A program made the translations under genes and the position numbers. A stretch of 64,000 nt of DNA from Bugula neritina (taxonomy: Eukaryota; Bryozoa; Gymnolaemata; Cheilostomatida; Bugulidae), in contig OZ037768.1 in the NCBI GenBank assembly GCA_964035545.1, positions 791,501 to 855,500 on the forward strand, written 5' to 3'. The notes beneath the pieces are model-generated. The model searched no databases and had not been told where the DNA came from. It was given only the letters and a program-made list of their open reading frames with translations. Positions 9,050 to 12,000 of the stretch are shown here, one piece after another (the first letter of the stretch is position 1; every line of letters begins with the position of its first letter).

Positions 9050-12000
9050 ATGGCTGATTTTCTTATAAGTGGTGGTACGGCCTATGTTCCAGATGATGGG
9101 CAAACCGGGGCCAGTCTATTTGGTGTTGGGGAAGGTTTAACTTACAAGTAAGTTATTGTTAGTGTGTTTGGTAAGTTATTGTTGATATATATGTTATTGT
9201 AGAAGATGTAACTTACATGTAAGTTATTGCTGTGGTACAGCAAAAAGTTTGATCCACATTAGATTACCATAATTATTAATTGCTTTATTTTGTTTTAGTG
9301 ATTTCATTATACTTCCCGGGTACATTGACTTTCCTTCTGGTGATGTCGTAAGTAATAATTTTAACATTCAACACTATTGTAATATTTACATGTGACACCT
9401 GTCACAGGTGCGTGTGACAACTTCTCGCAGGTGCGTGTGACATTGCTTGTTGTTTTCACAGGATCTTTCCTCAGCTCTTACTAAGAAGATTTCCCTGAAG
9501 GCCCCCCTCATTTCCTCTCCCATGGACACAGTCACTGAGGCTAGCATGGCAATAGCCATGGCGGTAAGTTCTCCTATACCGGAGGTGGCTTCACGGCTCA
9601 CCTATATTTGACCTTGAGGTTCTCATATCAGTGAATATTTTGTATAACAAATTTTAACAGCTTTCAATACAAATCAACAATGCTTCTTATAGCTTTTTAT
9701 ATATAGTATATTACTCTCACTTTATACTCGGCCATGACATTCTTTTTAAATATGCTTTGTGAGCCATGGTACTCTGTTCTTTGCTGATGGAGGGACAAAT
9801 CCCTGGAAAAGCTGCTACACACACACTCGCACTCACACACACACTCGCACAAATACATATAACACACTCACACTACTATAATACTAGTAATATATATATT
9901 GCTTTTAGCTACAAGGCGGTGTTGGAGTCATACACCATAACTGTACAATAGAGTTTCAAGCCGAGCAAGTTCGTAGAGTAAAGGTTGGTACACACTTAGC
10001 CTCAATCTGATCAGAACTCATACTAACTTATGTAAACATGTTACACACTTTATTTTGCTTTCAGTTTGTATTTACGTTGTGTATTGAAATATTGATTTGT
10101 CATTTAACGAGGAAGTTTAGAAGCAAATGCAGCAATAATTGCAGATAATGTCATATGTCTGCACTATTACTAATAGTGTCCATATGCCCTGGGGGCTGTC
10201 GGGTGCTGCCGTTCATTGTTCAGCTGAAAGAGAAGTCAGCAGGACATCTAATCTCAGTCTTAGTATAGTCTCTGTTGTATTACATACTACATGTTGTATT
10301 ACATACTAGATGTTGTATTACATACTACGTGTTGTATTACATACTACATGTTGTATTACATACTACATGCTGTATTACATACTCAACTCTCCATGTATAT
10401 GTTCATGGTTATGTTGTATTATGTTGTCTGGTACAATGTATACTGGTACATGCGCGTGTGTACGACCACACGAGCTCATGTATTATGGGATGTACATGTA
10501 GCGGTTCAAGCAAGGCTTCATACTCCACCCCGTATGCATGTCGGCAGACATGACAGTTCAAGATGCTCTCACTCTCAAAGACCAACACGGGTTCTCAGGC
10601 TTTCCTGTCACCACAAATGGTGAGATCGGAGTTAAACTGGTCGGCTTAGCGACCGGACGAGACTTTGACTTCCTCCAGGCCAATCAGTACGACACCGCCA
10701 TAACGGAGGTAGTCAGTCTCCTGAGTGAGGCAGCTCCGAGTGCAGTGGTCGCTTCTGCTTGTCCCTCATCCCTTTAAACCAATGTACTTACTCTGTACCT
10801 AGTTAGTACTTACTCTGTACCTAGTTAGTACTTACTCAGTACCTAGTCAATACTTACTCTGTACTTACTCTGTACCTAGTCAGTACTTACTCTGTACTTA
10901 CTCTGTACCTAGTCTGTACTTACTCTGTACCTAGTCAGTACTTACTCTGTACCTAGTCAGTACTTACTCTGTACCTAGTCAGTACTTACTCTGTACCTAG
11001 TTAGTACTTACTCTGTACCTAGTCAGTACTTACTCTGTACTTACTCAGTACTTACTTTGTACCTAGTTAGTACTTACTCTGTACCTAGTGTGTAGTGTGC
11101 TGTTGGTGAGAGTGTTTAACCAATCACTGCACCGTGTGGCTTGCTTGTCTTTATAGAAGTACGAACAAGGTTTCATAACAGACCCCATCATAATGTCGGT
11201 CGCCTCCACAGTAGGCGACTGCTTTGAGGCTAAGAGAATGCACGGGTTCAGTGGATTCCCTGTGACCTCCAACGGTAGAATAGGTAGTAAGTTGGTGGGC
11301 CTCGTCACCGGTAGAGATATAGATTTTATGACCAAAGATAGACTCAACACCAAAGTACATGAGGTAATCAAGTCACAGGCGGAGTAACTGTTGTTGGCCG
11401 TAGTTGTGTCAGCTGTATGTATGTCAGCAGTATATAGTATCAGCAGTATATAGTGTCAGCAGTGTATAGTGTCAGCAGTGTATAGTGTCAGCAGTATATA
11501 GTGTCAGCAGTGTGTAGTGTCAGCAGTGTATAGTGTCAGCAGTGTATAGTGTCAGCTGTGTATAGTGCTAGCTGTGTATTAGCTGTGTGTTGTGTTTCAC
11601 TTGTCTAGTCACTGTCAGAGCATACCTAAAAGGTTTATAGAAGTTAAAGCTGTGAAGTGTATGTGGGTGGTTGGTGGTTATGAAGTAATACTTCAATGTT
11701 ATTATCTAGTCAACAGTAAAGCAAACTTTTCCATTGCATGTTTAGTCAGATTTATCTAATAGTTGGTGAGATGTGAACTGCTAAGTAGGGTCACTGAGTC
11801 TAGGCCTGTCTAATTAGATTAGGGGGGAAGTTGAACCAACCCCTCTTTGGTAGACTATATACTCTACTTGGGCCTTGGCTAGTTAGTAATAGTTGAACCA
11901 ACTTACCACAGTTGACTGTTTTATCTCTAACCAGCTTACGGCTTGAGGTTTTATAATGCAAATATTTCCCTTGCGTGGTAATAATTCAACACCATAATGA

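Follow-up and report, generated by a model that had tools for sequence, protein, structure and literature searches.

A duplicated exon for the first CBS motif of IMP dehydrogenase in the bryozoan Bugula neritina: a candidate mutually exclusive pair

The IMP dehydrogenase (IMPDH) gene found in the 64,000-nucleotide stretch of Bugula neritina DNA analysed here (hereafter, the window) carries its exon 5 twice, as neighbouring exons 5A and 5B. The duplication is intact in its borders and reading frame, purifying selection has acted between the copies, relatives of 5A are conserved in other sequence records, and the residues expected to contact nucleotides or the octamer interface are retained. We consider it likely that a tandemly duplicated exon 5 has been kept in both copies, that the two serve as alternatives used mostly one per transcript, and that the choice between them shifts feedback inhibition by GTP. 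The reaction catalyzed by IMPDH limits the rate at which guanine nucleotides are made (PMC7176436). Mutations in the regulatory Bateman module of the enzyme disturb the feedback exerted by GTP and have in this way been linked to blindness and to neurodevelopmental disease (PMC4660370, PMC10407431).

The gene comprises 14 exon positions with AG/GT at every internal border, the fifth of which can be filled by either of two open, 207-bp, phase 0-0 exons (Table 1). The coordinates, lengths, phase, frames and borders of the pair had been proposed in an initial annotation of the window and were all borne out, as were the 514-aa enzyme obtained by spliced translation with either exon and the identity of about 54% between the copies (37/69 residues, or 53.6%; 111/207 bases). 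The IMPDH barrel covers the whole length of the product, PF00478 matching isoform A (with 5A) at 469 bits over residues 29-504 and isoform B (with 5B) at 468.6 bits, and the active-site C331 is present. Two CBS motifs inserted in this barrel form the Bateman domain. PF00571 matches the second of them (residues 176-229 in isoform A), the one stretch matched in each isoform, and the first is recognized by homology to IMPDH1 structures (best E = 8.3e-16 for 5A). The segment specified by exon 5 spans the first of the linker hinges and the CBS1 motif, in agreement with the earlier placement of the pair in the Bateman module, 5A being a conserved, homologous, candidate alternative to 5B for the first CBS segment. 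The motifs singled out at that stage are likewise there: HGFSGFPVT and TGRD occur in both copies, and NGRIGS of 5B reads NGEIGV in 5A.

Table 1. Features of the IMPDH gene and of the rest of the window (positions are those of the window).
Feature	Positions	Strand	Remarks
IMPDH gene	9050-15830	+	Spliced translation; start ATG at 9050, stop 15828-15830
IMPDH coding exons 1-4	9050-9147, 9299-9347, 9462-9563, 9909-9983	+	Spliced translation
Exon 5A, alternative CBS1 segment (putative)	10502-10708	+	Residues 109-177; donor GAG/GTAGTC
Intron between 5A and 5B	10709-11156	+	448 bp; 22-bp minisatellite at 10784-11089
Exon 5B, canonical-type CBS1 segment	11157-11363	+	Donor GAG/GTAATC
Exons 6-8, second CBS motif, linker and start of the barrel's second part	12575-12662, 12849-12951, 13155-13251	+	
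Exons 9-14, catalytic barrel with Cys331	13457-13643, 13818-13961, 14694-14838, 14998-15141, 15642-15725, 15809-15830	+	
Ubiquitin carboxyl-terminal hydrolase exon	32603-33151	+	PF00443
Exons resembling bHLH-PAS protein ARNT	about 46600-52700		By eye
ZIP zinc transporter exon	55341-55973	-	PF02535
Minisatellite-like open frames	37312-37956, 38771-39370, 45646-46843, 47348-47994, 48045-48871, 55093-55973		By eye

Elsewhere in the window, neighboring genes are represented by exons of a ubiquitin carboxyl-terminal hydrolase and of a ZIP zinc transporter, the latter beginning the minus-strand frame in which it lies. Exons of a bHLH-PAS protein resembling ARNT are recognizable by eye. Many of the window's long open frames (150-350 aa), several of them open in two or three frames, look by eye to be minisatellite and not genic.

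The two copies resemble each other well above the level of chance: in 20,000 shuffles of the residues at most 15/69 positions were identical, compared to 37/69 in the real pair. The dN/dS comparison suggested for them in the initial annotation rejected omega = 1 (2dlnL 26.1) in a codon model with dN of about 0.48, silent sites saturated and omega itself estimated at the limit of the range searched. Purifying selection has acted, and 5A is not decaying. A search of the genome with 5A (215,847,546 bases in 295 contigs, E up to 10) listed no place other than 5A and, at E = 1.9e-18, 5B; each copy is listed once, adjoining the other, in the IMPDH gene. PF00478 otherwise matched contig C3 weakly (E 5.8e-4) and contig C2, whose matches are, judged by a sequence motif, a GMP reductase. 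As judged from these sequences, the gene appears to be the only IMP dehydrogenase in the genome.

Relatives of the complete enzyme were drawn from a protein search with isoform B, which scored the 7996 proteins that had most words in common with the query; the best 120 of these were considered. The closest among the matches listed is the IMPDH of another cheilostome bryozoan, Watersipora subatra (82%; the next is at 78%), a single protein of the 5B type and the one member of its cluster, suggesting that 5A has been lost in that species, is not expressed or is not annotated. A search for a full-length protein containing 5A brought up 12 candidates, none at E 0.001; since none of the best 120 of 7996 matches to isoform B is named as Bugula either, the absence of a full-length isoform A says little. 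A protein search with the 5A segment, on the other hand, returned all four of its candidates (P0121 to P0124) at E 8.5e-26 to 1.5e-19. P0121 is a 79-aa Bugula neritina protein named IMPDH1 in NCBI, 93% identical over 83% of the 5A query; within the exon, 53/57 residues agree with those of 5A in the window. P0122 (107 aa), P0123 (101 aa) and P0124 (99 aa), all with ena as their source, are 64-75% identical to 5A (44/69, 43/57 and 42/57 residues, respectively). In the public B. neritina annotation, P0121 consists of 5A from an internal Met followed by 22 intron codons and is apparently a mis-modelled fragment. No relatives were found in the viral contigs searched, and the genome contigs searched held four loci, from metagenome bins, at 34-44%.

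All four records are reading frames that start inside or before the exon and run on into the next intron, and they therefore look genomic and not like spliced transcripts. The Val that contains the donor GT is kept in 4/4 records; over the 21 codons past it, matches to the window number 19/21 in P0121, 0/21 in P0122, 4/21 in P0123 and 5/21 in P0124. The similarity of P0122-P0124 falls away at the predicted 5A donor, P0121 being too close to inform, and that of P0122 begins where the acceptor is predicted. A single exon residue separates P0123 from P0124, and the two have the start of the intron in common, so that the four records represent about three lineages. The four relatives of 5A that were found are all intact and give no sign of the loss or frame decay envisaged earlier as evidence against the exon.

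To define what sets 5A apart, its five sequences were compared with 5B, with Watersipora, counted separately, and with a canonical set of the remaining 119 of the 120 proteins listed. Sixteen positions are invariant in the 119 canonical proteins, 5B and Watersipora, and each of the five 5A sequences retains all of the 16 that it covers; none of the 32 differences between 5A and 5B falls on an invariant position (hypergeometric P = 7e-6). Eight positions are distinctive of 5A (H/Q117, C120, M125, A130, L/Y133, E149, F163 and A/T174, with A in place of E at position 149 in P0124), the residues concerned being found in at most 3/119 canonical proteins and absent from 5B and Watersipora. Since the first 12 residues of the segment are missing from P0121, P0123 and P0124, positions 109-120, H/Q117 included, rest on the window and P0122. 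The hinge reads K111, L116 and H117 in 5A versus E, T and D in 5B. The view that the whole hinge is altered was nonetheless weakened by the finding of K111 in 8/118 and L116 in 35/118 canonical proteins, which makes them normal animal variation; only H or Q117, present in 0/119, is unusual.

A FastTree phylogeny of 48 of the 125 aligned segments (eight chosen and 40 thinned to less than 85% pairwise identity; 69 sites) joined the five 5A sequences in one group with a local support of 0.976 and placed 5B with Watersipora (0.931). The tree does not resolve the branch joining 5A to the rest, the nearest neighbor being P0045 (0.839), a protein with jgi as its source that has C120 and E149 as in 5A but K109, E111, D117 and I163. 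P0045 was considered as possible kin of 5A and judged instead to be a canonical type on a long branch. Among the 120 proteins listed, one is nearer to 5A than to 5B in the exon-5 segment, by one residue. A tree of 69 sites cannot place the duplication relative to other phyla, and the duplication is accordingly not dated here.

The exon-5 segment was mapped onto the Ashbya enzyme, whose numbering is that of the window plus 6, as deduced from the equal spans of 6rpu 116-173 and window 110-167 and from a match at the ribose Asp. In Ashbya (PMC5454003, PMC4660370), the hinge is made of E117-A123 and K231-P236, and the residues falling within the exon are I163, S166, R167 and D168 for site 1, N118, I121, V125, F145, A146 and G147 for site 2, and R167, D168, Q170 and F171 for the octamer interface. 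5A and 5B are identical at 11/12 of the corresponding window positions (112, 115, 119, 139, 140, 141, 157, 160, 161, 162, 164 and 165), the exception being 119, V in 5A versus I in 5B; at several of the 12, both copies depart from the Ashbya residue. Among the mutations reported for RP10 is T116M of human IMPDH1, and retinal IMPDH1 is described as having two PKC sites, T159 being one of them (PMC7176436); T159 is kept in both isoforms, both of which have G at 160. N198, R224, D226, L227, K238, C331, Y12 and R356 are present in exons common to the two isoforms. Y12 and R356 make the filament contact of human IMPDH2 (PMC7018514), and exon choice would therefore act on nucleotide control and octamer conformation, and not directly on that contact. 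The occurrence in a bryozoan IMPDH of Y12 (in the first coding exon) and R356 (in the exon at 13818-13961) may be set beside the human filament paper, which calls the Y12-bearing N-terminus vertebrate-specific (PMC7018514). AlphaFold2 models of the lone exons from six aligned sequences were too poor to use (mean pLDDT 51.4 for 5A and 45.9 for 5B).

At the level of splicing, 5A and 5B are homologous, neighboring internal exons of like length, phase and GT-AG sites, the features by which mutually exclusive exons are recognized. In fly, the combination of length, phase and similarity seen in exclusive exons also occurs in 90/16,180 X-chromosome exons that are not exclusive (PMC3228551), a figure that supports exclusivity as the default reading of the pair without proving it. 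The position +5 of the donor is not G in either 5A or 5B, compared to G in 12/12 other donors of the gene; in the four 5A records the codons following the exon are V and then V, H, L and L, respectively, which implies T, A, T and T at +5. Regulated exons often have weak donors. The missing +5 G is suggestive of regulation, its occurrence at both donors reflecting shared ancestry and not two independent observations. Neither donor is of the U12 type, as judged from the U12 consensus. RNA pairing among the three introns around the pair showed no excess over shuffled sequences (best energies of -38.9, -37.5 and -36.0, the averages over 12 shuffles of each intron pair being -36.2, -36.7 and -37.5, respectively), and an Rfam scan of positions 7000-18000 gave nothing at gathering score. 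All three introns (10273-12553) contain minisatellites, with units of 19 bp (5.8 copies), 22 bp (13.9 copies) and 16 bp (10.9 copies) and an AT-rich array; TACTTAC within the 22-bp unit resembles a branch-point sequence.

The reading frame does not itself enforce exclusivity, as double inclusion and skipping both stay open (583 aa and 445 aa, respectively). Inclusion of both exons, whether always or in some tissues, would produce an enzyme with three CBS motifs, and the shared 0-0 phase is compatible with it, as is the intron between the exons, which is not too short and in fact exceeds several constitutive introns of the gene, so that both exons could be spliced in. Against this, a functional Bateman module consists of two paired CBS motifs. 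In addition, the exon-5 segment is 69 residues long in 119/120 of the aligned relatives listed (95 in one), as opposed to 138 when doubled, these relatives being from species other than those known to carry 5A. On balance we regard double inclusion as improbable. 

More weight, if still rather little, attaches to the proposal that 5A is a rare or stage-limited cassette that differs little from 5B in function and is kept for the control of expression or splicing. The identity of the copies at the mapped positions other than V119, the missing +5 G of both donors and the record of Watersipora, annotated with no 5A isoform, would all suit such a cassette. Yet the same eight positions depart from the canonical residues in 5A relatives down to 64% identity, a pattern that points to selection for a distinct sequence and away from redundancy, and we find this proposal unlikely. 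That 5A might be a decaying relic no longer spliced in is suggested by its lower best score against solved IMPDHs (60.8 bits versus 80.8 for 5B) and by the poor pyrimidine tract of its acceptor (7/17). The acceptors of exons 10 and 13, both constitutive, are however equally poor (6/17 and 7/17), and four records hold an open, boundary-conserved 5A of the same length in which 16/16 invariant sites are kept, making a relic very improbable.

We thus favor a scheme in which the 207-bp exon 5 was duplicated in tandem and both copies were maintained, with splicing picking 5A or 5B, most likely one per transcript, in the manner of PKM exons 9 and 10. Isoform B would be the standard animal enzyme. Isoform A, 5B-like at the mapped contacts except V119, would have an altered hinge (D117 to H/Q) and changes in the rest of CBS1 (C120, M125, A130, L/Y133, E149 and F163). 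It should still bind nucleotides and form octamers, and we infer that it may differ in the balance between the extended, active octamer and the compressed, GTP-inhibited one. Splicing would then determine, for a given cell type or life stage, how strong the feedback by GTP is. Use of both exons in mRNA, their mutual exclusivity and any change in function are all predicted from the sequences described above.

The proposed arrangement recalls PKM, where exons 9 and 10 encode a 56-aa segment that sets allosteric behavior, M1 being constitutively active and M2 allosterically regulated (PMC3498831). In both cases one metabolic enzyme gene has two neighboring alternative exons, putative in the bryozoan, for a segment of the same length, either of which completes the enzyme. 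The enzyme and its fold are different, and the exclusivity and functional difference of the PKM exons are experimental, whereas those of the bryozoan pair are predicted. The bryozoan enzyme is otherwise like animal IMPDH1 and IMPDH2 in its 514 aa, Cys331, Bateman domain, N198, R224, D226, K238, Y12 and R356, but the 120 animal-type IMPDHs listed each have one exon-5 segment. The described retinal splice forms of IMPDH1 alter the ends of the protein, not the CBS1 motif. In length, phase, splice sites and homology the pair is comparable to the mutually exclusive exons defined by Pillmann et al. 2011 (PMC3228551), from which it differs in that exclusion is predicted for IMPDH and that no RNA pairing or other enforcing device was found. 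The initial annotation knew of no described IMPDH with such an exon pair; consistent with this, no paper on a duplicated or exclusive IMPDH exon was found, by title and start of abstract, among the open-access papers listed for IMPDH and such exons, and the 10 listed of 975 open-access papers on the subjects of bryozoans and IMPDH included none on the pair.

We tentatively suggest that the guanine pathway of bryozoans has a splicing switch of the PKM kind, through which one gene would provide two IMP dehydrogenases with different GTP feedback, and cells with a high demand for GTP or cGMP might escape inhibition by splicing and not by means of a second gene, as in the case of vertebrate IMPDH1 and IMPDH2. 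The conserved, natural pair of CBS1 cassettes offers a ready-made comparison of the residues that tune GTP feedback and, if the proposal is true, would independently exemplify the PKM logic in a different pathway and a different phylum.
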